This document shows, piece after piece, positions 10,029-23,968 of a stretch of DNA of 64,000 nucleotides. Where the stretch lies: assembly GCF_029238675.1 (NCBI RefSeq), contig NZ_JAQWFR010000002.1, positions 124,001 through 188,000 on the forward strand, read 5' to 3'. The position numbers and the translations under genes are program-made. Position 1 is the first letter of the stretch, and every line of letters starts with the position of its first letter. The notes beneath the pieces are model-generated. The model had not been told where the DNA came from, did not search any database, and saw only the letters and a list, made by a program, of their open reading frames with translations. Origin of the DNA: Oceanicoccus sp. Lineage in GTDB: Bacteria > Pseudomonadota > Gammaproteobacteria > Pseudomonadales > Dasaniaceae.

Positions 10029-11204
10029 ATGACTACTGCAGTCCCGTCTATTTTATTGATTGATACTAACGCCAGTGAGCGTGAAGCCTATGCCGCCTAT
10101 CTTAAGCAGCAGGGTTATAGCGTTTATGGCACTGCCGACCTTCAGCAAGCCTACGGCATTGTTGAACAACATAGTCCCCAGCTTGTCCTCTGTGACTTAA
10201 ATGTTCCAACACTGAGCGAGCAAACGATATTACAAGCCATCCAGTCAAATTTTACCCATTGCCCGGTCATCGTGATGTCCAGCGGCGGGGTAATGGCGGA
10301 TGTGTTGGCGGCTTTGCGCCACGGTGTCAGTGATTTTCTGGTTCGCCCCCTGGCCGATATGGAGGTACTGGCTCACGCGGCTAAGCGGGCTCTGGAACAG
10401 AGCCAGTTACGCCAGCAAAACCAGGACTACCGCGAGCAGTTGGAGCGCACAAACCAGGAACTACAAGCCAGCCTGCAACTGCTTGAGCAGGACCAGCTTG
10501 CCGGCAAGCAGGTGCAGCGCAAAATGCTACCTGCTAATAACAAGCAGTTTGGCAATATCACCTTTAGTCGCCGCATCGTACCCTCAGTTTATATCAGCGG
10601 TGATTTTATCGACTACTTTACCGTGGGTGATGACTATGTGGTGTTCTTTATCGCCGACGTCTCTGGCCATGGGGCATCTTCGGCCTTCCTGACGGTGTTA
10701 TTAAAAAATATGTTTGCCCGCAAGCGCAGCGACTTTTTTCACCGGGATGACAATACCATCCTGTCACCGGTGGGTATGTTGGATGTTGCCAATCGCAACC
10801 TGCTCAATACCAGTATCGGCAAGCATGCAACTCTGTGTGTGGGGGTGATAAACCTCAAAGATAATAGTCTGCTCTACAGTGTTGCTGGCCATCTGCCATT
10901 GCCGATTATGGCGGCAGGGGGAGAAGCCAATTATTTACACTGTGAAGGTATGCCAGTTGGCTTGTTTGAGCATGCGCACTATTCAGAAAACACGCTATTA
11001 TTACCAGAGAATTTTGTTATGACCTTTTTTTCTGATGGTATATTAGAGGTTGTTGAGGCAGAGGGTGTTATCGCCCAGGAGCAGTTCCTGTTAGATAAAT
11101 TGCAAACTGCCCCCGATAGTATTGACAGTATTGTTGATGCATTGGGATTGAACGAATTAGTAGAGGCACCGGATGATATCGCTGTGTTATTGATATCCCG
11201 TTAA
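10029..11204 (+). CDS. response regulator with PP2C (SpoIIE-type) phosphatase output, HsbR-like
   Basis: This 391-residue protein has a receiver domain (about 1-120), with phospho-acceptor Asp56 in LVLCDLNVP. A Gln/Glu/Leu-rich coiled coil spans about 125-165, and a SpoIIE/PP2C phosphatase domain runs to the end (ISGDFIDYF, IADVSGHG, FFSDGILEV carry the metal-binding Asp residues). Such proteins dephosphorylate a STAS anti-sigma antagonist, which is encoded next (11224). Pseudomonas HsbR also has a C-terminal kinase domain; this protein ends after the phosphatase, so the kinase would have to be encoded elsewhere. Confidence 0.88.
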   Translation: MTTAVPSILLIDTNASEREAYAAYLKQQGYSVYGTADLQQAYGIVEQHSPQLVLCDLNVPTLSEQTILQAIQSNFTHCPVIVMSSGGVMADVLAALRHGVSDFLVRPLADMEVLAHAAKRALEQSQLRQQNQDYREQLERTNQELQASLQLLEQDQLAGKQVQRKMLPANNKQFGNITFSRRIVPSVYISGDFIDYFTVGDDYVVFFIADVSGHGASSAFLTVLLKNMFARKRSDFFHRDDNTILSPVGMLDVANRNLLNTSIGKHATLCVGVINLKDNSLLYSVAGHLPLPIMAAGGEANYLHCEGMPVGLFEHAHYSENTLLLPENFVMTFFSDGILEVVEAEGVIAQEQFLLDKLQTAPDSIDSIVDALGLNELVEAPDDIAVLLISR

Positions 11205-11223
11205 AGTAGTAGGTAGTAGCGTC

Positions 11224-11712
11224 ATGCAAGCAGGTAAGATACTGGTAGCACAACATCAAGCGACATTCGTCATCAAGCTGGTTGGCGATGTGCGGCTGAC
11301 TTTGTGTACTACCATTGACGATTATTTTACCCAGATGTTTTCCAGCCCTTCGATTGATGGTGTGGTTATAGACCTGTCAGAAGCTGAAGGTATAGATAGC
11401 ACCTCACTGGGCATGCTGGCCAAATTAGCCGTGCAAGCCAAACAGCTTTATCGCCTGGTACCAATAATCCTTTCCCCCAACCCCAACATTACTCGCCTGT
11501 TAGACAGCATGGGGTTTAACCAAGTGTTTGATATTCACCAGAATCTCGATGACCAGGCCTGTGATAATTTAGGCGAATTACCGATGAAGTCCGCCGATGA
11601 AGCGGGCTGTCGCAGCAAGGTGATAGAAGCCCACCGGATTTTGATGGATCTTAATGAAAGTAATCGGGAAACCTTTTCTTCTTTAGTAACTACCCTGGAA
11701 ACCGCTTTCTAA
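11224..11712 (+). CDS. STAS-domain anti-sigma factor antagonist, HsbA-like
   Basis: A 162-residue protein 19 bp after the phosphatase gene. The STAS core spans about residues 1-105, with the phosphorylation-site motif D58-S59-T60-S61-L-G; Ser59 aligns with Ser58 of SpoIIAA. A C-terminal helical extension (about 120-162) matches the HsbA layout. In Pseudomonas, unphosphorylated HsbA binds the anti-sigma factor FlgM, and the phosphorylated form acts with a diguanylate cyclase; whether this holds here is inference. No FlgM gene is in the window. Confidence 0.85.
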   Translation: MQAGKILVAQHQATFVIKLVGDVRLTLCTTIDDYFTQMFSSPSIDGVVIDLSEAEGIDSTSLGMLAKLAVQAKQLYRLVPIILSPNPNITRLLDSMGFNQVFDIHQNLDDQACDNLGELPMKSADEAGCRSKVIEAHRILMDLNESNRETFSSLVTTLETAF

Positions 11713-11805: not shown

Positions 11806-12912
11806 ATGGCTTCTCTAACCACAAACCCCGATAGTTTTCGTGATTTATTGCGTAGCGATACCCCCTTTCTTGATGTGCGGGCTGAGCTGGAGTTTGCTGC
11901 TGGAACACTGCCAGGCTCCTTTAACATCCCGATTCTAAATAATGATGAGCGCCATCAGGTGGGGACCTGTTATAAACAGCAAGGGCAGGCGCAGGCGATA
12001 GAGTTGGGGCATCAACTGGTTAGTGGTGATACCAAACAACAGCGTATAGCGCGCTGGTGCCAGTTTGCCAAAGACAACCCAAACGCTCACCTCTATTGCT
12101 GGCGAGGTGGTATGCGTTCCAACCTAACGCAACAGTGGATGCAACAAGCGGGTGTGGATATTCCTCTTATTGAGGGAGGCTACAAAGCCCTGCGCCGGGT
12201 ATTACTGGATGAGATAGAAGCGACCACCCATTCCCCAATGATCATTATCGGCGGCAAAACCGGCACCGCTAAAACTCCGTTGATTAATGAACTGGCTACC
12301 GGTATTGATCTTGAAGGCTTTGCCCATCATCGCGGTTCCAGTTTTGGTCGTCGGGTTGAAGAACCTCCCTGCCAGGTTAATTTTGAAAATCGTTTGGCGA
12401 TTGAGTTGCTAAAAAAGCGGCATGCTTTTAACCATCACCCACTATGTTTTGAAGATGAAAGTCGAATGATTGGGCCAATCAGCTTACCCCATAATTTATG
12501 GCTGGCGATGTGTGAAACCCCTATTGCTGTGGTGGAAATGTCACTGGAATTTCGTGTTCAACGTATTTTGCAGGAATATGTTGTGGAGATGGAGCAGGAG
12601 CACCTGGCTGTAGATACTGAGCAAGGCTATCAAAACTATCGCCAGCATTTATTAGCGAGCTTATACCGTATTCGCAAGCGCCTGGGCTCAGAGCGTTATC
12701 AACAATTAGAAAAAGTCATGAGCGGTGCGCTAGACCAACAACAAAGCAGCGGTGATGTCTCAGCCCATGAAGCATGGATTGAAACCTTGCTGGTCGACTA
12801 CTACGACCCTATGTATGAACACCAACTGCAAAACAAACAGTCCCGCATTCAATTTAGCGGTGATTACCAACAAGTTGCAGCATGGGTTTCTACCCAGCAG
12901 TATACTGATTAA
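11806..12912 (+). CDS. selU: tRNA 2-selenouridine synthase (MnmH/SelU)
   Basis: This 368-residue protein has an N-terminal rhodanese domain with catalytic Cys98 in LYCWRGGMRS, then a P-loop domain with GGKTGTAKT at residues 149-157. That is the full architecture of E. coli YbbB/SelU. The enzyme replaces sulfur with selenium in the wobble 2-thiouridine of tRNA, via a geranylated intermediate, using selenophosphate. It needs SelD, which is encoded at 18055-20289. It converges on the marR gene, with 8 bp between stops. MnmC (at 1-415) modifies the same nucleotide. Confidence 0.95.
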   Translation: MASLTTNPDSFRDLLRSDTPFLDVRAELEFAAGTLPGSFNIPILNNDERHQVGTCYKQQGQAQAIELGHQLVSGDTKQQRIARWCQFAKDNPNAHLYCWRGGMRSNLTQQWMQQAGVDIPLIEGGYKALRRVLLDEIEATTHSPMIIIGGKTGTAKTPLINELATGIDLEGFAHHRGSSFGRRVEEPPCQVNFENRLAIELLKKRHAFNHHPLCFEDESRMIGPISLPHNLWLAMCETPIAVVEMSLEFRVQRILQEYVVEMEQEHLAVDTEQGYQNYRQHLLASLYRIRKRLGSERYQQLEKVMSGALDQQQSSGDVSAHEAWIETLLVDYYDPMYEHQLQNKQSRIQFSGDYQQVAAWVSTQQYTD

Positions 12913-12920
12913 TAGAGCGG

Positions 12921-13382
12921 TTAAAGGGAATTGGCTTTACTCAACAAGAAATTCAGTTGCAGCACTTCGGTCGCTGGTAATCGGCTATCCATCAGGTTTT
13001 GGACCCACTCAGCGTAGGCCTGTGCCATTTCCTGGTGCAATTGCCGGCCACCCATAGTCATACTGATTTCAGTCAGGCGCCGATCTTTGCGATTGCTGCG
13101 TCTCTCCAGCAGATCTTCGTTTGCCATCCGCTCAACGAGTTTAGTGATATTGCCATTGGAAGCCAGTAGCTGGTTGGCTACTTTACCTATGGATTGCCAG
13201 GGATCTTCGCCCTTGGCCAATTGGGACAATAAATCAAAACGGGTAAAGCTTTGATTAAAGTGTTTGCGAAAACGCTGGTTTATTTCCTGCTCGAAGCTTT
13301 TTGAGCAGCGTAGAAGTTGCTGGGTAAACTCAAGGTAAATTTGTTGCCCTTGTGGTAAGTCCTGTTTCGTTCTTGTGTCCAT
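12921..13382 (-). CDS. MarR family transcriptional regulator
   Basis: This 153-residue protein has the MarR winged helix: recognition helix around LLASNGNITKLVERM and wing LLERRSNRKDRRLTEISMT, flanked by long dimerisation helices. It lies downstream of gor on the same strand (178-bp gap), so its own promoter is likely in 13383-13560, an AT-rich stretch. Its target may be gor or the selenium-type operon, but nothing in the sequence proves this. Confidence 0.88.
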   Translation of the reverse strand: MDTRTKQDLPQGQQIYLEFTQQLLRCSKSFEQEINQRFRKHFNQSFTRFDLLSQLAKGEDPWQSIGKVANQLLASNGNITKLVERMANEDLLERRSNRKDRRLTEISMTMGGRQLHQEMAQAYAEWVQNLMDSRLPATEVLQLNFLLSKANSL

Positions 13383-13560
13383 GCTTGCAGTCCATATGGC
13401 CTAATTATCAATTATTAAAATATCCTTACTTACATGTAAATAAAATTCAAAAATCCTTTTCTGCAACCTCTTAGTGCTGATTAGTATAAACCATACCTCA
13501 TAATAGTGATAAAAAACATACCCCATTATACCTACTAACACTTTTATTTAGCTCTATTGT

Positions 13561-14925
13561 TTATTTGACTCTGGGACTACGCATGGTAACAAATTCTTCA
13601 GCGGCGGTTGGGTGAATGCCAATCGTGTTGTCAAAAATCGCTTTCGTGGCGCCAGCTTTCATCGCTACAGCCATACCTTGAATAATTTCACCGGCATCTT
13701 CGCCTGCCATATGAATACCCACTACTCGGTCGGAGGCCGTATCCACAATAAGCTTCATATAGGTACGTTCTGCTCTACCGCCAATGGTATGTTTCATAGC
13801 GCGGAACTCAGAATCGTAAACGGTAATATCTGAATATTTTTTTCTTGCCGCTTCTTCAGATAATCCACAAGTACCAATATTAGGCTGGCAAAAAACAGCG
13901 GTTGGAATAGTGTCGTAATCTACGGTGGTGGCTTCGTTGTTATACAGTGTTTTTGCGAATGCCATACCTTCTGCCAGAGCCACTGGAGTTAGTTCCATAC
14001 CGCCGGTAATATCTCCCAAAGCATAAATGTTAGATTCACTGGTTTGAAAGTTTTCACCGATTTTAATGGTGCCGTTATCGTTAAGTGCCACGTCGACATT
14101 ATCAAAACCTAAATTTTGTAAATGAGGCTTGCGGCCGGTGGCATATAAAATAGCGTCAGCTACTATTGAACTTCCATCTTCCAAAAGTGCTGTTAAACTA
14201 CCGTCAGCCTGTTTTTCTATGGTGGCGATATTACTGTTAAAACGCAGGTCTATGCCGGAAGCGGCAATTTCTTTTGCGGCAAACTCTCTAATATCCTGAT
14301 CAAAACCACGTAAAAACAATGGGCCGCGATAAAGTTGTGTGGTCTGTGCACCAAGGCCATTAAAAATCCCCGCGAATTCTACGGCTATATAACCACCTCC
14401 AACCACTAACATACGTTTAGGGAATTCCTCCAGGTCAAAAACTTCATTAGAGCTAATGGCATATTCGCTGCCTGGAAATTCAGGAATATAGGGCCAGGTG
14501 CCGGTGGCAATCATAATGCGCTCTGCCGTGTATTGCTGGTCATTAACCGCAACAGTGTGATTATCGACAAAGCGTCCACGGCCATCAATAACGGTTACAC
14601 CGGCGCCGCCCAGCATAGTGTCGTAAACCCCGTTTAAGCGGGAGATTTCTTCGATCTTGTTATCACGTAGTGTTGGCCAGTCAAATTCGGGAGCACTGGT
14701 ACTCCAGCCAAAGCCCTGGGCGTCTTTAAATGCATTGCGATACTCTGAGGCATAGACATACAGTTTTTTGGGTACGCAGCCTACATTGACGCAGGTGCCA
14801 CCCATATAACGATCTTCTATAACCGCCACTTTGGCGCCGAAGGAGGCGGCCATGCGGCTGGCCCTAACACCGCCAGAACCGGCACCAATAATAAGCAGGT
14901 CAAAGTCGTATTGATGTGTACTCAC
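13561..14925 (-). CDS. gor: glutathione-disulfide reductase
   Basis: A 454-residue FAD/NAD(P)-disulfide oxidoreductase. The FAD motif is GAGSGG (14-19), the redox pair Cys45 and Cys50 lies in GGTCVNVGCVPKK, the NADPH-binding region GGYIAVEFAG is followed by the phosphate-binding R-x5-R (YRGPLFLRG), and the C-terminal active-site His438 is in GIHPTAAEE. It reduces GSSG with NADPH in the cytosol. It lies 87 bp after the last gene of the selD-transporter operon on the same strand. Glutathione is the main chemical reductant of selenite in proteobacteria, so the position may be functional. Confidence 0.95.
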   Translation of the reverse strand: MSTHQYDFDLLIIGAGSGGVRASRMAASFGAKVAVIEDRYMGGTCVNVGCVPKKLYVYASEYRNAFKDAQGFGWSTSAPEFDWPTLRDNKIEEISRLNGVYDTMLGGAGVTVIDGRGRFVDNHTVAVNDQQYTAERIMIATGTWPYIPEFPGSEYAISSNEVFDLEEFPKRMLVVGGGYIAVEFAGIFNGLGAQTTQLYRGPLFLRGFDQDIREFAAKEIAASGIDLRFNSNIATIEKQADGSLTALLEDGSSIVADAILYATGRKPHLQNLGFDNVDVALNDNGTIKIGENFQTSESNIYALGDITGGMELTPVALAEGMAFAKTLYNNEATTVDYDTIPTAVFCQPNIGTCGLSEEAARKKYSDITVYDSEFRAMKHTIGGRAERTYMKLIVDTASDRVVGIHMAGEDAGEIIQGMAVAMKAGATKAIFDNTIGIHPTAAEEFVTMRSPRVK

Positions 14926-15012
14926 AGTATTTCTCCGTAATGTTTTCAGTTTGTTATTGCGCAGTGGTGAGGATATTAGTGCCTCAAGGCAAAAATATAA
15001 ACTTGTTAATCA

Positions 15013-16500
15013 CTATTTGTTTCTTTGCGCTTGCGGTGTACTCCGCAAATGCAAGCGGTGCCGTAATTGCCGCGAGCCCTGGTCAACAAGGATATTTAAC
15101 AGTGCACTGACAGCAATCAGTATTACTGCAACATCCAGCCGAAAGCTCTCAAACGCGCTATCAATATAAAAACCCAGGGTATGCACGCCAAGTATCCCCA
15201 AAATAGCACTCTCTCTTAAGATGACCTCCCAGCGGTAACAAAGAAAGGCTAAAAATTGCCCGTATATGCGCGGCATAATTTCAAAACAATAACGATGAAA
15301 GCCCTTACTGGCATCCAGTCGCAACGTTATTTGATGGCTATGGCGACTGATTAGGTTGGCGATAATAGCGCCATTATGAATAGCCAGTGCAATAATTGCG
15401 GGCAGCATGGATGGCCCTAACAGAAGTAATAAGGCGAAAGCGATAATCAGTTCAGGGGTTGAGCGCAAAATCACCAAAGCCAGGTGACTGCTAAAACGAA
15501 TCGGTAGAGAAAAGAATTGCCGGGAACTAAAAGGAAACAGACAAAGAGCAATTACGGCGGTGAGCAGTAAGGCAATTTGGGTAACCACCAGAGTGTTGCC
15601 AATACCTGGCCCTATTTCAGTACTGCCTAAATGACTAAGCCAATATAAAATGCCGTTAATATCTTCGCCATTTCGAATCGGCAGGGGGATGATATCGTGG
15701 AGAAAATGACTGGCCAGTGAGAGTTGTAGGCCCTCTTGCCCCCACAAACTAAATAGCGCAACCGCAAAATACAGTGGCAACAATGTGGGCCGCATCCACC
15801 AGCGCAGTGATGCAATCATAATATAGAAAATAAACAGAATACCGGCGGCCTGGCTGTAAAGGCCTTGCATAAAAGCCGTTTCCAAATGAAAACCCAGGGT
15901 AGGCAGACCAATAAAACCTAATACAGTGCTGGAACGTAGGCCGCACTCTAATCGGTATAGGCTATAGCTGCGAAAATGCGGCAACAGTTGTGGCCACTGA
16001 GCATAAAAAAAATGACTAAAACGATCGCTGTGTCTGGGGGCAACGGCTTGGGATTGGTGCTCTTCAATAATTTCAGCAAAAACTTTGGCAAAGATACCGG
16101 TATAGGGCAGGGCAATAGCCAAATAGCCTGCTAGTGGGTGAATACCAATCAGTTGAATAAATAGCAGCCCCCAAAATAATTCATGTACAGAGCGAATGGC
16201 GGCACATAAAGAGCGCAGCCATAACTGGTGAAAGAACAGACTTAAAAAAAGTCCGCCCACCGCCGCTGTGCACACCGCTAAAAAAGCGTAGCTAAATGTT
16301 TGCGCAATAGCGGCAATCAGTTCGTCAAAAGGTAACAGCGTAGGTTGAAAAAATCCTCCCGCCATTGCCGCAAATTCCTGCCATGGGCTGCGGTTGCTGA
16401 TTTCAATATCGGCAAAGGGTAAACATAACAGGGCCGCCGCCAGCAATAACAGAAAACTGCGAATACCTGTGGGCAGATGATAGCGCGGTGCGCTAATCAT
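15013..16500 (-). CDS. ABC transporter permease, two PhnE-like modules in one chain; putative selenium oxyanion or phosphonate transport
   Basis: This 495-residue membrane protein has two binding-protein-dependent permease modules, each with the EAA-like loop (GIHPLAGYLAIALPYTGIFAKVFAE and ILGVHTLGFYIDS regions). PhnE proteins are usually about 260-290 residues, so this is a tandem fusion acting as both halves of the channel. It overlaps the ATPase gene by 8 nt. Family alone would say phosphonate/phosphite. The operon starts with selD, which favours a selenium source, as in the group annotated at NCBI as putative selenate ABC transporter. Substrate unproven. Confidence 0.82.
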   Translation of the reverse strand: MISAPRYHLPTGIRSFLLLLAAALLCLPFADIEISNRSPWQEFAAMAGGFFQPTLLPFDELIAAIAQTFSYAFLAVCTAAVGGLFLSLFFHQLWLRSLCAAIRSVHELFWGLLFIQLIGIHPLAGYLAIALPYTGIFAKVFAEIIEEHQSQAVAPRHSDRFSHFFYAQWPQLLPHFRSYSLYRLECGLRSSTVLGFIGLPTLGFHLETAFMQGLYSQAAGILFIFYIMIASLRWWMRPTLLPLYFAVALFSLWGQEGLQLSLASHFLHDIIPLPIRNGEDINGILYWLSHLGSTEIGPGIGNTLVVTQIALLLTAVIALCLFPFSSRQFFSLPIRFSSHLALVILRSTPELIIAFALLLLLGPSMLPAIIALAIHNGAIIANLISRHSHQITLRLDASKGFHRYCFEIMPRIYGQFLAFLCYRWEVILRESAILGILGVHTLGFYIDSAFESFRLDVAVILIAVSALLNILVDQGSRQLRHRLHLRSTPQAQRNK

Positions 16501-17200
16501 GGTCGTAAAGGGGCTCTAGTTGGTCGGGGGTGATATTATCAGGGTGGTCGTTTAAAACGATTTTTCCCTGTTGAATACCAATAATCCTGTCGGCAAAAGC
16601 CAATGCTTGTTGGGTGTCATGCAGGGCGATCACACAACTTTGGCTATGTTGTTGGCTATGTTGTTCGCTATGTTGTAACAACGCTGAGATAACCGTGTCG
16701 GCCATGGTTTTATCCAGGCTGGAAGCGGGTTCATCGGCAAGGATAATATCAGCCTGGCTGTAAATGGCTCGGGCAATGGCAACCCTTTGTTGTTGCCCGC
16801 CGGATAGTTGGCTAACGGTTTTATAAAGTTGCTGGTCCAGGTTAAAGCTGCCTAACAGCTTGCTTATCGCTTCAACATGTTTAGGACGTGGCCACAGTAA
16901 ATTGATTAAGTTATAGCTTCGTGAGTGTTGGTCCAGTCGGCCCATATAGATATTGTGAAAGACCGAGAGTTTGTCCACCAGCCCCAACTGCTGTGGCACC
17001 CAGCCAACGCGATGATCCGTGTTGCTGAGATGTTGGTAGATCAGTTTCAGTAAGGTTGATTTACCCGCGCCACTTTTCCCCAGCAAGGCAATGCGCTCTC
17101 CTTGATGAAGCTCCAATGTGACCTCATCTAACACCCGTTGCTGCTGATAAAAAACTTCAGCATTTTCAAGGCGGAGTAAAGGTTGTGGCGAGGGGGTCAT
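16493..17200 (-). CDS. ABC transporter ATP-binding protein, PhnC-like
   Basis: This 235-residue ATPase has Walker A GKSGAGKST (41-49), the Q-loop in WVPQQLGL, signature LSGGQQQR, Walker B IILADEP and the switch His in ALHDTQQA. It is most like PhnC of phosphonate-type importers. Near residues 178-188 it contains a HS(E/Q)QHSQQHSQ insertion, coded by a 12-bp unit repeated three times around 16640-16676. That may be a recent microrepeat expansion in a surface loop. It lies 3 bp from the binding-protein gene. Confidence 0.87.
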   Translation of the reverse strand: MTPSPQPLLRLENAEVFYQQQRVLDEVTLELHQGERIALLGKSGAGKSTLLKLIYQHLSNTDHRVGWVPQQLGLVDKLSVFHNIYMGRLDQHSRSYNLINLLWPRPKHVEAISKLLGSFNLDQQLYKTVSQLSGGQQQRVAIARAIYSQADIILADEPASSLDKTMADTVISALLQHSEQHSQQHSQSCVIALHDTQQALAFADRIIGIQQGKIVLNDHPDNITPDQLEPLYDHD

Positions 17201-17203
17201 TGC

Positions 17204-18058
17204 TTAGTCCAGCAAGCCAATGGCGCGGGCGGTATCTTCAATAGCTTGATAATCCTTATTGCTGGCCGGCACAAAAGCTTTTCTGGGGAAGGCGTTAAGT
17301 AATTCCGGGTTTTTCATATCGAGCAGGGCTTGTTTTACTTTTTGTTTAAAGCCTTCTCCCCATCGTTTGTCTACATCGCCCCTGACAGTCCACTGATAAT
17401 CAGGATAATGGGGTGTAGTCCATATAATACTGACTTTATCCAAATCGACTTTCCCTGCGGCTAATTCTTTTAACCAGACCTGGTAATTTAATGCCCCCAA
17501 CTGATAGCTACCACTTTGTACCAACGCAATAGTGCGTGAATGGTTGCCAGAAAACCCGACCCGGCTAAACAGTTGCTCAGGGCTTTGTTGAAATTGCTGT
17601 TGTAAATAATACTCCGGCATCAGGCGTCCCGATGTTGAGCTTTTAGAGCCAAAGGTAAAGGTCATGCCTTTAATGTTTTCGCTAAGCTGTGCACCGTTAA
17701 TAAGCCCAGTGCTGTGGTGGGCTATAAAATAACTTTTAAATTCGGGGTCTTCGGCCCCTTGGGCAATGGCTGCTGATCCCGGCGTTAGGCGTCGGGCTTG
17801 TACGCCGGTTAAACCACCAAACCAGGCCAGTTGTACCTGGTCATTGCGAAAGGCGCTAACGGCGGCGGCATAAGATTTTACCGGAACATATTTTACTGCT
17901 ACGCCCAGTTGTTGTTCCAGATAGTCGGCTACTTTAGAAAAGCGGGCGTTTAACCGGGTTTCATCGGCATCGGGGATCGCGGTAAAGACAAAAGTCTCGG
18001 CGGCGGCAGTGCTGCAGAGTAATAAGGTCAGTAAGGTTTTCGATAGTTTGCTAATCAT
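17204..18058 (-). CDS. periplasmic binding protein, PhnD-like; putative selenium oxyanion-binding protein
   Basis: The product is 284 residues from ATG 18058, which overlaps the selD TGA stop as ATGA, so translation is coupled. An upstream in-frame extension would lie inside selD and is rejected. The signal peptide MISKLSKTLLTLLLCSTAAA is cleaved before ETFVFTAIPD. The body is PhnD-like (AVSAFRNDQVQLAWFGGLTGVQAR, FGSKSSTSGRLMPEYYL). The second segment lines the ligand pocket in phosphonate-binding proteins. Linkage to selD matches the binding-protein group annotated as putative selenate ABC transporter. Substrate inferred, not shown. Confidence 0.83.
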   Translation of the reverse strand: MISKLSKTLLTLLLCSTAAAETFVFTAIPDADETRLNARFSKVADYLEQQLGVAVKYVPVKSYAAAVSAFRNDQVQLAWFGGLTGVQARRLTPGSAAIAQGAEDPEFKSYFIAHHSTGLINGAQLSENIKGMTFTFGSKSSTSGRLMPEYYLQQQFQQSPEQLFSRVGFSGNHSRTIALVQSGSYQLGALNYQVWLKELAAGKVDLDKVSIIWTTPHYPDYQWTVRGDVDKRWGEGFKQKVKQALLDMKNPELLNAFPRKAFVPASNKDYQAIEDTARAIGLLD

Positions 18059-20289
18059 AATTTCTCTACAGTTTGTAAGGTAATATGGTTGCGGTTGTCG
18101 ATGTGGCCAATAATGGCAGCATGGGGACAATCACTGTGTTGTAGTGCTTTCAGGCAGTCGTCAGCTCTGTCGGCATCAATCGCCGCTAATAAACCGCCTG
18201 CAGTTTGTGGATCAAACAGCAGTGGAAAAAAGCTATGGGTTTTAAAGTCATCAGCATTGCTTAGCCCTTGCTGCGCTTTGGCATTATCCGGGTGCAGTGA
18301 GCTTAACCAGCCATTGCCCGCGCATTCGGCGGCGCCATTTAACACGGGTAATTGATCAAGTTCAAGGCTGGCACCGCAGTCTGTGGGTTTTAGCATTTCT
18401 AATAAATGGCCCAGCAAACCAAAGCCGGTAATATCAGTACAGGCGGTGGCACCATGGTGGTAAATAATCTCTGCCGCGTTTTTATTGCTGATGAGCATTT
18501 GCGCAATAGCTTGATCTATCCAGCGGCCCTGTGCCTGTCCCTGCATATTGGCGGCCAGCAAGGTGCCAGTGCCTAATGGCTTGGTGAGTATTAGCGCCTG
18601 GCCTTGCTGGAGATTACCTTTGGTCAGTAGTTGCCCTTTATCAGCCACACCATTTACCGATAGGCCAAAACCCAGTTCAGCGCCTTCACTACTATGCCCA
18701 CCGATTAAAGCCGTGTTCTGTTCGTTAAGACTGTCTACCGCGCCACTCATCATTTGCAACAAAGTATCTTCCGTCAACGTTTCGCTGGCATAAGGAATGG
18801 TTGCTATCGCGAGGGCAGAGTGGGGTGTTGCACCCATGGCGTAAATATCACTGAGGCAATGGTTGGTGGCAATACGTCCAAGCAAGTAAGGGTCATCAAT
18901 AAAGGCGCGAAAATAATCAACGGTTTGCAACCATTGTTTATTAGCCGGTGGTGTAATAACAGCGGCATCATCGGGAGCATTAAGGCCAATGGGGGTGTCA
19001 GGGTTATCGGTAATATTCAGTTGTGCCATCACGCGATTAAGAATTTGATGACCCACCTTGGCGCCGCAACCACCGCAACGCATGGCGACTTCATCTGCTG
19101 GCATTTTGGTGGTTTTAGTTGTATTGGGCAGCTGTTGGTACTGGGCCATAAAGGCTCGATCAATACGATCTTTCCAGCGCCATAACCATTGCCCTGAAAC
19201 GCTCAATGGCCCTCTTGAGGCAATCGCCTGTTTATCCCCGGTCATTAATAAACTGAGAAATTGCCGCTGCGGTCGATAGGGTAATAGTGCCTGTCCCATA
19301 ATAGCCCGGCGCAGGTTGTTGCTTAAATGTTTGCCGGCACGCACGGCATAGACACCACTTTTAGCCAGGGGCTGCTGGCTAAAGTCTGCAATATCTCCGG
19401 CAGCAAATACATTGGGGTGTGAGGTGCTTTGCAGGTATGGGTTAACGCTGATAAACCCCTGTGAATCACAGGCCAGCCCCGTTTGTTGTGGCCACTGCGG
19501 GCTGCCGGCATGAATCGCCCAAATGATTTCGTCGGCCTTGCTGTTCTGGGCGTTATTAAAATTAAGCTGGTATTGCTTGTCGATTTTTTCAGCACTGGCT
19601 ACTGTGTGCTGAACTTTCAGGGTGATGCCTCGCTGCTGCAGTAGCGCTGTCATTTTTTTCCGTGTACGGGGGTTATGGGTTGGCAGTATTTCATTGGTGC
19701 CGCAGTAAAGGGTGAAGTGTGGGCTTTTGCTGCTACCGTTGCGCTGCTGCCATTGGTACTGGCAGGCCAGGGCGACTTCAGCGCTGGCGGCGCCACCGCC
19801 AATAATGGCGACCTTAGATGCTGGCGTTAACTGGGAGGCTGTCTGTTCCCAGCGGGCTAAAAAAACGTCGATGGGTTTAACCGCAATGCCATAATTTTCG
19901 GCACCAGGTATGCTTTGAGTAGCCGGTTGCGAACCAATATTGATGGATAACCAGTCATAGCGAATTGGGCTGCGGTCGTGGCAAAGCACCTGTTGCTGCT
20001 CCAGATCGATATCGCTGACCTGGGATTGGAAGAAGCGAACCTGGGCAAACTGGCATAGCTTGCGCAGATCGATATGGGCTTCATCATACTGGTAGTGGCC
20101 GGCAATCATGCCGGGCATCATGCCGGAGTAGGGGGTATGGCTGTCTTTACTGATAACCGTAACCCGCAGGCCCGGCACAGGGTTCATCCCCAGTTGTTTG
20201 ATCACCGCCAGGTGGCTGTGGCCACCGCCAACCAGTACCAGGTCCTGTACCAGATCAGTAGTGTTAACTTGAGATGTTGTTGAGTCCAT
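18055..20289 (-). CDS. selD: selenide, water dikinase fused to an N-terminal pyridine nucleotide-disulfide oxidoreductase-like domain
   Basis: A 744-residue fusion. Residues 1-390 form an FAD-dependent NDH-2-like flavoprotein (GGGHSH at 21-26, GGGAASAEVALACQ, then AAGDIADF). Residues about 400-744 are SelD, with active-site Cys408 and Lys411 in RCGGCGAKVGHQ and the AIR-synthase-like ATP domain. SelD makes selenophosphate from selenide and ATP. The active site has Cys, not Sec. The flavoprotein domain is thought to help deliver or reduce the selenium source. It heads an operon with an ABC importer, and SelU is close by. No selA, selB or selC is seen, so tRNA selenouridine may be the main product. 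Confidence 0.92.
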   Translation of the reverse strand: MDSTTSQVNTTDLVQDLVLVGGGHSHLAVIKQLGMNPVPGLRVTVISKDSHTPYSGMMPGMIAGHYQYDEAHIDLRKLCQFAQVRFFQSQVSDIDLEQQQVLCHDRSPIRYDWLSINIGSQPATQSIPGAENYGIAVKPIDVFLARWEQTASQLTPASKVAIIGGGAASAEVALACQYQWQQRNGSSKSPHFTLYCGTNEILPTHNPRTRKKMTALLQQRGITLKVQHTVASAEKIDKQYQLNFNNAQNSKADEIIWAIHAGSPQWPQQTGLACDSQGFISVNPYLQSTSHPNVFAAGDIADFSQQPLAKSGVYAVRAGKHLSNNLRRAIMGQALLPYRPQRQFLSLLMTGDKQAIASRGPLSVSGQWLWRWKDRIDRAFMAQYQQLPNTTKTTKMPADEVAMRCGGCGAKVGHQILNRVMAQLNITDNPDTPIGLNAPDDAAVITPPANKQWLQTVDYFRAFIDDPYLLGRIATNHCLSDIYAMGATPHSALAIATIPYASETLTEDTLLQMMSGAVDSLNEQNTALIGGHSSEGAELGFGLSVNGVADKGQLLTKGNLQQGQALILTKPLGTGTLLAANMQGQAQGRWIDQAIAQMLISNKNAAEIIYHHGATACTDITGFGLLGHLLEMLKPTDCGASLELDQLPVLNGAAECAGNGWLSSLHPDNAKAQQGLSNADDFKTHSFFPLLFDPQTAGGLLAAIDADRADDCLKALQHSDCPHAAIIGHIDNRNHITLQTVEKL

Positions 20290-20498
20290 ATACCCTTTAA
20301 AGCTTATTCAGTAAAAAGCTTGTTATTCAGGGGCTTAGCTTAACAGGCTGTAGCCAAATGACACAATTGGTACCTACGGTTGGTGCATGGGGTGATACCT
20401 CATGGTCATCATTCGCAGGTAAAATGCTTGTTATTCTGGTTATTGCTATAATTCACGGCTCACGAGCTAACAATATTAAGAAATGCTGGAGTTTGATT

Positions 20499-22124
20499 AT
20501 GATCGGTCAGATGATGAATTCGCCTTTAACTATTACGTCATTAATGGCGTTTGGCGAGAAGGTCTATGCCAATTCTGAAATAGTGTCGGTAACAGCGGAT
20601 AACCCCTTATTTCGCTACACCTTTGCGGATGCCTTTAAACGTACCCGCCAGCTGGCCAATGCTCTGAACACCCTGGGAGCCAAGCCCGGCGATTGCATTG
20701 GCACCCTGGCCTGGAATGACCACCGTCATTTTGAATTGTATTATGGCGTGAGCTGTTCCGGCATGATTTGCCACACCATGAACCCCCGCCTTTTCCCCGA
20801 GCAAATTGACTACATCATTAACCACGCCGAAGACCAATTTATATTTACAGATATTCTCTTTTTACCGCTGCTTGAGAGCTTAAAAGATCGCTTGAGCACG
20901 GTTAAGGGCATTATCGTACTGACCGACGAGGCCCATATGCCAGACACATCGCTGGAAGATGTGTACTGCTATGAGACGCTTTTAGCCGCCGAGACCGATG
21001 CCTTTAGCTGGCCAGAAATTAATGAATTAGATGCTTCCAGCCTGTGTTATACCTCGGGTACTACTGGTAATCCGAAGGGAGTTCTATACAATCACCGCTC
21101 CACCGTATTGCATGCTTTAACGGGTAACCAGCCGAGCGTTATGGGGCTTGGAGAAAACGATGCCGTGTTGCCCATTGTGCCTATGTTTCATGTCAATGCA
21201 TGGGGCATTCCTTACGGTAGTGTTATCACCGGATCAAAGATGGTTTTCCCCGGCCCCAAGATGGCCGATGGCGAAGCACTAACCACACTGATCAATGAAG
21301 AAAACGTCACCTACTCGGCAGGTGTGCCAACCATATGGTTGGCTTTACTCGACTACCTTAAGCAGTCGGGTAAATCCATAGAGCCACTGAAGCGAGTGAC
21401 GGTAGGTGGTGCCGCTTGCCCACTATCCATCATGGAAGATTTTGATAAGTACGGCGTTTACACTCATGTTGGTTGGGGTATGACCGAAATGAGCCCGCTG
21501 GGTAGCTACAATGGCGAGCTGGACCGCGAAGCATTAGGTGAAGAAGAATTTGCCCGTTTAAGAGTCAAAGCGGGGCGCTGTATCTACGGCGTAGAAATGA
21601 AAATTACGGATGAAGACAATAATGAACAGCCCTGGGATGGTGAAGCTTTTGGTTCATTAAAAGTACGCGGCCCCTGGATTTGCGATAGCTACTTCAAAAT
21701 GAAAGATAGCGATTCCCATGATGCCGATGGTTGGTTTGATACTGGTGATGTTGCCACCATTGACCCTACCGGGATGATGCAAATTACTGACCGCAGCAAA
21801 GATGTTATTAAGTCCGGTGGTGAGTGGATCAGTTCCATCGATCTGGAAAATACCGCTGTTAATCATCCCTCTGTGGTTGAGGCAGCAGTCATTGGTTTAT
21901 ACCACGAGAAGTGGACCGAGCGTCCTTTATTGTTAGTGACTAAACAGCCCGGTGCCGAGTTAAGCAGAGAAGAGATGCTGGCCTGGTTTAAAGGTAAGGT
22001 AGCCACCTGGTGGATACCAGACGATTGTTTATTTGTTGAAGAGCTGCCCCATACCGCTACCGGCAAGCTCAGTAAAAAAGATTTACGTGAGCAATATAAA
22101 GATTACCGATTCCCCACTACTTAA
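20499..22124 (+). CDS. AMP-forming acyl-CoA ligase (AlkK/DmdB-like)
   Basis: A 541-residue ANL-superfamily enzyme from ATG 20499, preceded by TGGAG at 20487-20491. The open frame extends upstream to 20358 but the extra 47 codons look non-coding. Motifs are the AMP-binding loop [15 protein letters not shown], the GWGMTEMSP segment, the hinge [15 protein letters not shown] and the C-terminal catalytic Lys region [12 protein letters not shown]. It activates a carboxylic acid to its CoA thioester. Medium-chain fatty acid ligases and the methylmercaptopropionate ligase DmdB share this architecture. The next gene is DmdC-like, so a paired pathway is likely, but the substrate is open. Confidence 0.85.
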
Positions 22125-22192: not shown

Positions 22193-23968
22193 ATGTCTGA
22201 TTACGTTGCACCCATTAAAGAAATGAGTTTTGTACTCAATGAGCTGGCGGGCTTATCTGAAGTATGTGAACTACCGCGCTTTGAAGATTCCAGCGCAGAT
22301 GTGGTCGATGCCGTTCTTGAAGAAGCCGGCAAATTTGCCGGCGGTGTGCTGGCACCTTTAAATACCGTTGGCGATAACAATGGCGCCCGATGTGTTGATA
22401 ATGCGGTACAGGAAACCGAAGGTTTTGCCGGTGCCTACCAACAGTTTGTTGAAGGTGGCTGGGTGGCCTTGCCCTGTAACCCCGAGTTTGGCGGCATGGG
22501 CTTACCGGAAAGTGTCGGTATGGCCAGTATGGAAATGTGGAATGCGGCCAATATGGGCTTTAGCCTGTGTCCGCTTCTTGGACAGGGTGCGATTGGAGCT
22601 ATCGAAGCTCACGCCAGCGATGCATTAAAAGCGACCTATCTGGAAAAAATGGTTTCTGGTGAATGGACCGGAACCATGAACCTGACTGAACCACAGGCCG
22701 GCTCCGATTTGGCGGTAGTGCGTTCAAAGGCAATCCCCAACGGTGACCACTATCTGGTTAGTGGCACCAAGATTTATATTAGCTGGGGTGACCACCAGAT
22801 GACAGACAATGTGATCCACCTGGTATTGGCCCGTACACCGGATGCCCCGGAAGGGGTTAAAGGTATTTCCCTGTTTATAGTGCCCAAATTTTTAGTCAAT
22901 GAAGACGGCTCTATCGGTGAGCGCAACGACGCTTATGCGGTAGGCGTTGAGCATAAATTAGGCATCCACAGTAGCCCGACCTGTGTAATGAGCTTTGGCG
23001 ATAACGGCGGAGCTGTGGGCTATTTGGTCGGTGAAGAAAATAAAGGCCTGGCCTATATGTTTACCATGATGAACCATGCCCGGTTAAATGTAGGTGTCCA
23101 GGGCGTTGCTATTTCCGATCGCGCTTATCAGCATGCGGTGGTTTATGCTAACGATCGTGTTCAGGGCTTGGCTCCGGGAGACAAAGAGAAAGGTACCATT
23201 ATTCGTCACCCGGATATTCGCCGTATGTTGATGGTGATGCGTTCTATGACGGAAGCTTCCCGTGCAATATGTTATGTGGCTGCTTCAGCCTTTGATATGG
23301 CCCATCATGGTACAGATCAGGAACAGCGCCAATTGGCCAATGCTCGCGGCGAATTATTAACGCCCATTGCCAAGGGGTGGTCCACTGAGATTGCCCAGGA
23401 AGTGACTTCCCTGGGGATACAAATTCACGGCGGTATGGGCTTTGTTGAAGAAACCGGTGCTGCCCAGTATTACCGTGATGCCCGTATTACTACTATCTAT
23501 GAAGGCACTACCGGTATTCAAGCCAATGATTTAATTGGCCGTAAACTGATTCGTGATAAGGGTCAGGAGTTCGCGCGCTTGATTGCCGAAATCCGTGAAA
23601 CGCAGGCGGAAGTAACAGCCAGTGGTGATGACATGGCCGCTATAGCCAAGTCTTTAGCTGAGGGTGCAGACTCTCTGGAGCAGCTAGCCAATTGGGTGGT
23701 TGAGCACCATAGGGACAACCCGCAATTACCTGGCGCAGTTGCGGTTAACTTTATGATGGCTGCGGGTACTGTAATCGGCGGCTGGTTACTGGCCAAAGGT
23801 GCATTAGTCGCCTCAGCTAAGTTGTCAGAAGATGAGAGTTTCTTCGGCGCCAAAATAATTACCGCCAAATTCTATGCCGAACAAATTATGCCAAGGGCAG
23901 CAGCGCACGTAAAAATGGCCGAATCGGGCAGTGCTATGACGATGGCATTAGCAGATGATCAGTTCTAA
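22193..23968 (+). CDS. acyl-CoA dehydrogenase of the large (about 590-residue) DmdC/FadE-like group
   Basis: This 591-residue protein has the acyl-CoA dehydrogenase N-terminal, middle (MNLTEPQAGSDLAVVRSKA) and C-terminal domains, plus the extra C-terminal helical domain of this group. The catalytic base is probably Glu437 in TTIYEGTTGIQAND. It oxidises an acyl-CoA to the enoyl-CoA with FAD. Characterised relatives include 3-methylmercaptopropionyl-CoA dehydrogenase (DmdC), but many members act on fatty acyl-CoAs. It lies 68 bp after the acyl-CoA ligase, with rubredoxin following; electrons normally go to ETF. Confidence 0.88.
   Translation: MSDYVAPIKEMSFVLNELAGLSEVCELPRFEDSSADVVDAVLEEAGKFAGGVLAPLNTVGDNNGARCVDNAVQETEGFAGAYQQFVEGGWVALPCNPEFGGMGLPESVGMASMEMWNAANMGFSLCPLLGQGAIGAIEAHASDALKATYLEKMVSGEWTGTMNLTEPQAGSDLAVVRSKAIPNGDHYLVSGTKIYISWGDHQMTDNVIHLVLARTPDAPEGVKGISLFIVPKFLVNEDGSIGERNDAYAVGVEHKLGIHSSPTCVMSFGDNGGAVGYLVGEENKGLAYMFTMMNHARLNVGVQGVAISDRAYQHAVVYANDRVQGLAPGDKEKGTIIRHPDIRRMLMVMRSMTEASRAICYVAASAFDMAHHGTDQEQRQLANARGELLTPIAKGWSTEIAQEVTSLGIQIHGGMGFVEETGAAQYYRDARITTIYEGTTGIQANDLIGRKLIRDKGQEFARLIAEIRETQAEVTASGDDMAAIAKSLAEGADSLEQLANWVVEHHRDNPQLPGAVAVNFMMAAGTVIGGWLLAKGALVASAKLSEDESFFGAKIITAKFYAEQIMPRAAAHVKMAESGSAMTMALADDQF

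Follow-up and report, generated by a model that had tools for sequence, protein, structure and literature searches.

Within a 64,000-nucleotide stretch of the Oceanicoccus sp. contig NZ_JAQWFR010000002.1 (positions 124,001 to 188,000; hereafter the window, from whose first letter all coordinates are counted), four minus-strand genes encode a selenophosphate synthetase fused to an oxidoreductase, a PhnD-fold periplasmic binding protein, a PhnC-like ATPase and a PhnE-like permease. We consider it probable that this selD-binding protein-PhnC-PhnE operon specifies a dedicated importer that is coupled to its own enzyme for reduction and activation and takes up a selenium oxyanion, of which selenite is the likeliest. 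It is the genome evidence, not the binding pocket, that points to selenium; the pocket fits phosphite as well. The operon comprises the following genes.

18055..20289, minus strand: NDH-SelD fusion, 744 amino acids, the leading gene of the operon; an N-terminal FAD/NAD(P)H oxidoreductase and a C-terminal selenide, water dikinase (selenophosphate synthetase)
17204..18058, minus strand: PhnD-fold periplasmic binding protein, 284 amino acids, TIGR04553 family; the proposed selenite binder
16493..17200, minus strand: PhnC-like ATP-binding cassette (ABC) transporter ATPase (PF00005)
15013..16500, minus strand: tandem-fused PhnE-like permease of two units, 495 amino acids (TIGR01097)

From SelD through the permease, neighbouring genes either overlap or lie a few bases apart. 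The ATGA that a preliminary description of the window had noted where selD meets the binding protein gene is an exact overlap (ATG at 18058-18056, TGA at 18057-18055), and the ATPase gene overlaps the start of the permease gene by 8 nt. Both parts of the fusion pass their models (TIGR03169, 473 bits against a cut-off of 310; TIGR00476 selD, 291 bits against 125). A non-selenium look-alike, TIGR04369 'fusion_not_SelD', was rejected as an identity for this protein, which scored 518.6 bits, under the cut-off of 700. In an alignment with the selenide, water dikinase 2yye, CGGCGAKVG of the fusion falls opposite the N-terminal stretch SSGCAAKVG, and we take the Cys and Lys of CGGCGAK to be the catalytic residues. 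The ATPase remains under the cut-off of TIGR02315 (178 bits against 266), as does the permease, matched in two stretches, under that of TIGR01097 PhnE (204 bits against 217).

The binding protein is a member of the NCBIfam family TIGR04553 (397 bits, cut-off 250) and fails the PhnD equivalog TIGR03431 (134.8 bits, cut-off 261). Since NCBIfam already names TIGR04553 a putative selenate importer, the idea of selenium import is not new as a hypothesis; what the present analysis adds is a link to selenoneine genes and a kinship with the PhnD1 proteins of picocyanobacteria that argues for selenite. Among the papers listed by our literature searches, by family name and accession and for selenite together with PhnD-type proteins, there was no study of the TIGR04553 family and none of selenite binding by a PhnD protein. 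Such a family label is used in passing in the relevant parts of two papers, in one table row (PMC9426549) and in a table row and one sentence (PMC13077682). According to passages in reviews from 2022 and 2026, a specific high-affinity selenium uptake system has not been identified (PMC9312934, PMC13188914), and the pertinent results of a 2024 study of Methanococcus mutants report that none of five candidate transporters was required (PMC11097638). A genomic link to SelD has likewise led to YedE/YedF being proposed for selenium transport (PMC5322559). YedE, however, is a relative of sulfur transporters that sits in the membrane, whereas the system of the window combines an ABC transporter with a binding protein. 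An 'ABC transporter-related ATPase' encoded near orphan selD genes was among the candidates of Peng et al. (2016), who in the text concerned with it proposed neither a substrate nor a binding protein (PMC5029168); this ATPase may have been the first sight of the system described here.

Selenium genes in importer genomes and importer loci

The importer was scored as present where a TIGR04553 match lay above cut-off, and SelD, SelU, SelA and SenB were scored likewise, in two samples of 229 genomes each, one from the class and one from the phylum, with four importer genomes common to both. TIGR04553 was found in 10 of the 229 class genomes, spanning nine families of the sample, and in none of 14 control genomes. 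All ten encode SelD, as against 49 of 229 genomes overall (Fisher p 9e-8), and in the phylum sample SelD is present in 19 of the 20 importer genomes as against 59 of 229 overall (p 9e-12), both p values ignoring shared ancestry. Related binding proteins below the TIGR04553 cut-off show no such link: 17 class genomes have a best protein of 150-240 bits, and four of these encode SelD. Furthermore, C-P lyase PhnJ was found in none of the ten class importer genomes, the source genome included (6 of 229 overall). The preliminary description had argued for a selenium rather than a phosphonate importer and had named a lack of co-occurrence with selD beforehand as the finding that would speak against it; within the phylum, these counts and the gene neighbourhoods described below support the argument.

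The selenium-using genes were also counted in the class importer genomes, with SelU in seven of ten (35 of 229 overall), SenB in five (13 of 229) and SelA in three (8 of 229), and at least one of the three in every importer genome. Three different uses of selenium are represented among the genomes that carry the importer, one of them the making of selenoneine. That the importer serves SelU alone was considered and rejected, since two importer genomes (G126 and G154) have SenB without SelU or SelA and a third (G209) has only SelA. The route from importer through SelD to SelU that had been suggested for the window is thus supported in the source genome, while being too narrow for the family as a whole. 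The binding protein and SelD lie at most 10 kb apart in 6 of the 10 class importer genomes and in 8 of the 20 from the phylum; G209 is counted here through a SelD fragment at a contig end that is itself below cut-off, the SelD piece above cut-off being on another contig than the importer.

Some further observations concern the SelD genes themselves. G154, G218 and G392 each have two, a stand-alone gene and an NDH fusion, and the importer lies nearer the fusion. One in-frame TGA is present in the SelD genes of G134, G237, G329 and G457, whose products possibly contain selenocysteine. SelD occurs as an orphan, with no SelU, SelA or SenB above cut-off, in the class-sample genomes G123, G131 and G090 (the last 76% complete), and in G183, an assembly that is 87% complete, SelU and SenB are above cut-off and SelD is not.

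We then compared gene neighbourhoods among the closest named relatives of the binding protein, the best 80 of 288, from which one locus 100% identical to that of the window (L032) was excluded. The remaining 79 share 61-73% identity with the window protein over the best segment; for 15 of them the fetched locus was shorter than 16 kb. The importer is a conserved unit, with an ATPase match in 78 of the 79 loci and the first permease half in 77, and with both permease halves in a single open frame in 75 (three of the other four end with the contig). SelD is encoded locally in 46 loci, SelU in 25 and the selenoneine enzymes SenB and SenA, identified by NCBIfam matches above cut-off in representative loci, in 18 and 5, so that at least one of selD, selU, senA and senB adjoins the importer in 48. 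Where SelD is not local, it is encoded elsewhere in the genome for 32 of 33 relatives. In addition, a Sphaerotilus plasmid carries the order selU-ATPase-permease-binding protein-selD around a divergent member of the family (38% identity, TIGR04553 307 bits). This plasmid was one of three plasmid matches that were opened (H1, H12 and H17). No match to the importer was found in phage records, no relative in the viral contigs through which cyanobacterial loci were sought, and no cyanobacterium among the plasmid matches listed.

Other genes recur in this neighbourhood. A gene for the regulator HexR lies near the importer in 9 loci and one for glucose-6-phosphate dehydrogenase in 11; zwf and HexR were considered as possible partners and set aside, as no selenium meaning was seen in them. 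The loci representing this arrangement (L065 and L067) contain none of the four selenium genes locally, and SelD is present elsewhere in their genomes. In L118, the importer locus of G209, a gene for a DsbD-like membrane reductase, below the cut-off of its NCBIfam models, immediately follows the importer.

Binding pocket and predicted ligand

The nearest solved proteins to the window binding protein are picocyanobacterial PhnD1 (7s6g, 5lq5 and 5lq8), and both PhnD1 sequences themselves pass the TIGR04553 cut-off, with 334 and 297 bits. At the 11 pocket positions that the PhnD1 paper names, 7s6g agrees throughout with the window protein (D30, Y63, T84, S140, S141, T142, S143, H173, N191, D220 and Y221), and 5lq5 agrees at 9. 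An AlphaFold2 model of the window protein, built on an alignment of 24 of the 79 named relatives, has a mean predicted local distance difference test (pLDDT) score of 92.2, and its best structural match is again 7s6g (Z 29.4, root-mean-square deviation 4.5 over 264 residues). The phosphite and hypophosphite binding proteins PtxB and HtxB have the same fold (PtxB rows at Z 23.5-27.7, HtxB rows at 21.7-25.7) at 23-27% identity; PtxB shares the STS-H motif with the window protein but has Q in place of the ligand Asp and falls in a separate clade. The E. coli PhnDCE system is of the same importer type and fold (PhnD rows at Z 21.5-22.1), from which the window protein is set apart by its score against the PhnD equivalog and the source genome (92.7% complete) by having no PhnJ match.

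Apart from the variable T84 and S140, the pocket pattern is kept in all 79 named relatives and in 19 of 25 other members above cut-off; three of the six exceptions differ only by an Asp to Asn change, which is seen in some PhnD1 proteins as well (PMC10284923). This comparison omitted the copies of the window locus (L001, L002 and L032) as well as loci fetched again at greater length. Other positions, among them A27, I28, P59, V60, W79, Q100 and W195 of the window protein, set members apart from relatives in genomes without SelD, and 7s6g has all seven.

A maximum-likelihood tree of 75 rows, comprising a random 22 of the 79 named relatives, the further loci L003-L031 and L130-L145, four PDB stretches and three proteins from plasmids, with the same copies and repeat fetches omitted, places PhnD1 within the TIGR04553 clade, tied to the main group by a 100/99 branch. 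Branching outside the main group and PhnD1 are the Sphaerotilus protein and a set of sequences among which are the selD-adjacent members from G275, G420 and G424; a 100/98 branch divides all of these from PtxB and from half of the lower-scoring relatives. The bracketing of PhnD1 hinges on a weaker fork (94/77) and on the root, and in this tree 5lq5 combines a long branch with an unusual composition.

Selenite, SeO3(2-), is pyramidal and has three oxygens like phosphite, and a lone pair takes its fourth position. In the PhnD1 structures, phosphite, phosphate or methylphosphonate is gripped through three oxygens beneath a Tyr cap (PMC10284923, PMC5700983). For Synechococcus PhnD1 the tabulated dissociation constants (Kd) are 0.67-4.3 uM for phosphite and 7.4-88 uM for phosphate, a preference of about 6- to 50-fold for phosphite over the tetrahedral ion, and methylphosphonate is also bound more weakly than phosphite (PMC10284923). 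A three-oxygen pocket and a pyramidal ion together make selenite, rather than selenate, the predicted ligand, and by analogy with PhnD1 we hold it somewhat more probable than otherwise that selenite as such is the species transported. The importer could instead be specific for selenate that is reduced to selenite inside the cell, a variant of import of a selenium oxyanion for which the curated NCBIfam name speaks; tetrahedral selenate should, however, fit badly, as phosphate does, into a homologous pocket that prefers a three-oxygen ligand and has a small fourth position, and we regard this variant as rather unlikely.

A different possibility is that the operon imports phosphorus, as phosphite, phosphate or methylphosphonate, and that its link to selenium is incidental or reflects a shared need, for example of phosphate for selenophosphate. 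The closest matches in both sequence and structure, with a pocket identical in 7s6g, are after all PhnD1 proteins, which bind phosphite with a Kd in the nanomolar to low-micromolar range (PMC10284923, PMC5700983). Such an importer would not be expected to keep company with SelD as consistently as was found in both genome samples, nor to have a selenium gene in most of the loci of the named relatives and, in Sphaerotilus, a separate operon with selU and selD; PhnJ is moreover missing from the class importer genomes (the search did not extend to ptxD, phnX or Pst genes). The phosphorus role is weakened for PhnD1 itself by reports that phnD1 is unresponsive to phosphorus limitation and that the hosts tested are unable to grow on phosphite or methylphosphonate (PMC10284923). 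Taken together, these points lead us to consider a phosphorus importer unlikely.

Several observations nevertheless weigh against import of selenium. No selenium binding or transport was found reported in the literature for any TIGR04553 member, and the solved members, the PhnD1 proteins, bind phosphite with the affinities given above. The pocket residues were tried as a selenium signature, which failed: they are largely common to relatives from genomes without SelD, so that the pocket does not tell selenium and phosphorus apart, and members from G038 and G107 deviate from the pattern at some positions. The importer is absent from 39 of the 49 class genomes with SelD and is thus not needed for selenium use. 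The 79 named relatives stem from few genera and are not independent; 31 of them have none of SelD, SelU, SenA and SenB in the fetched locus, and the genome of one, L080, has no SelD match. On the two opened plasmids from Rhodobacterales, the importers lie among genes without selenium annotation. Finally, SelD is missing from one of the phylum genomes with the importer, G361, whose binding protein has lost the Tyr cap. In that protein (L145) the capping Tyr, the ligand Asp and the cap-supporting Asn are all changed, which is perhaps a change of substrate.

Gene identities, the ATGA coupling, membership of the family, co-occurrence, conserved neighbourhoods and the identity of the pocket are observed, whereas the species transported, how tightly it is bound, its reduction and the role of the system in the cell are inferred. 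On the selenite reading, the system would work as follows. The periplasmic protein would close over SeO3(2-) or HSeO3(-) in a small pocket, in which Ser-Thr-Ser, His, Tyr and Asp would surround the three oxygens and the Tyr would cap the fourth position. As their families suggest, ATPase and fused permease would together carry selenite into the cell, where the oxidoreductase domain fused to SelD, already proposed as a reductant (PMC2432076), is the likely final reductant toward selenide. SelD would then make selenophosphate, from which SelU would, in the source genome, insert selenium at the tRNA wobble uridine.

PhnD1 of marine picocyanobacteria

If the window importer carries selenite, the same may be true of the whole TIGR04553 clade, including PhnD1C1E1 of Prochlorococcus and marine Synechococcus. 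We put this extension forward tentatively, judging it plausible but somewhat short of an even chance; for PhnD1 it rests on family membership, tree position and pocket identity. The known system resembles that of the window in passing the TIGR04553 cut-off, nesting in its clade and sharing its pocket in 7s6g, yet it differs from a selenium importer as currently understood: PhnD1 is reported to bind phosphite, phosphate and methylphosphonate and has been proposed to be a constitutive phosphate importer (PMC10284923).

The genes phnD1C1E1 are described as a core transporter of picocyanobacteria, the phnD1 genes are reported not to respond to phosphorus limitation, and WH8102 and MITS9220, together with MED4 and MIT9313 as cited there, are reported to be unable to grow on phosphite or methylphosphonate (PMC10284923). 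The word stem 'selen' is absent from the main text of that paper. Surveys of selenium use record relevant genes for these organisms: one from 2005 reports ybbB for cyanobacteria and, for Prochlorococcus marinus and Synechococcus, the fusion of NDH with SelD (PMC1273633), and in the relevant part of a 2016 survey three Prochlorococcus genomes have SelD without a known selenium use (PMC5029168).

Were selenite import to hold across the clade, the paradox of a constitutive phosphite-binding importer in organisms that cannot use phosphite would be explained, the binding of phosphite by PhnD1 would be fortuitous, with phosphite mimicking selenite, and PhnD1 across the oceans would be a selenium and not a phosphorus gene, which would change how phnD1 is read in marine surveys. 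A conserved, SelD-linked importer makes the question of a dedicated selenium importer directly testable, and homologues above the same family cut-off, the PhnD1 proteins, have already been purified and crystallised as phosphorus proteins.

Other genes of the locus

Downstream of the operon the window encodes three further genes, which lie, as do those of the operon, where the preliminary description had placed them.

13561..14925, minus strand: gor, glutathione reductase (NF004776, 635 bits, cut-off 480)
12921..13382, minus strand: MarR-family regulator (PF12802)
11806..12912, plus strand: selU/mnmH, tRNA 2-selenouridine synthase (NF008751, 492 bits, cut-off 361; rhodanese domain PF00581)

A gap of 87 nt separates the permease gene from gor and one of 178 nt separates gor from marR, which is convergent with selU across an 8-nt gap. 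Across the region, promoter-like and terminator-like matches are about as frequent as chance predicts (16 against 14.3 expected and 14 against 11.2 expected, respectively). The SelU translation contains YCWRGG, an instance of the pattern YCxRGG that we take to be its active-site motif.

All seven genes had been proposed to form a single 8.5 kb module, in which import under MarR control would be followed by reduction through Gor and glutathione and by the action of SelD and SelU. The genes are indeed adjacent in the source genome, with gor on the same strand shortly after the permease gene, and glutathione-dependent selenite reduction is established chemistry, which makes a Gor step chemically possible. 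Gor is, however, a general housekeeping enzyme, and neither it nor MarR adjoins the importer in any of the 79 named relatives; a reductant would already be supplied by the oxidoreductase half of the SelD fusion, which is the likelier candidate for this step; and selU, convergent and on the opposite strand at 2.1 kb from the permease gene, stands outside the operon. A role for Gor in selenite reduction and for MarR as regulator of the system are therefore not upheld, and the complete module appears very improbable.

The statement that no machinery for selenocysteine (Sec) is present could be extended from the window to the whole source assembly (2.32 Mb in 30 contigs, 92.7% complete), in which SelA was not found and the best tRNA-Sec candidate scored 41.4 against a gathering score of 47; selB was not searched. 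The selenoneine enzyme SenB likewise had no match above its cut-off of 300 bits in this genome. Among the pathways searched, which did not include genes for selenium-dependent hydroxylases, SelU is the sole selenium-using pathway found there.

Two further groups of genes flank the locus. Immediately upstream of selU and on the same strand, a gene for a response-regulator/PP2C-type phosphatase is followed by a STAS-domain gene (10029-11712, plus strand), as judged by reading. On the other side, an acyl-CoA ligase (20358-22124, plus strand) falls barely below the cut-off for 3-(methylthio)propionyl-CoA ligase (788 against 822 bits) and is followed by an open frame that resembles an acyl-CoA dehydrogenase on reading (22193-23968, plus strand); these two could be genes of dimethylsulfoniopropionate (DMSP) demethylation adjoining the selenium operon.

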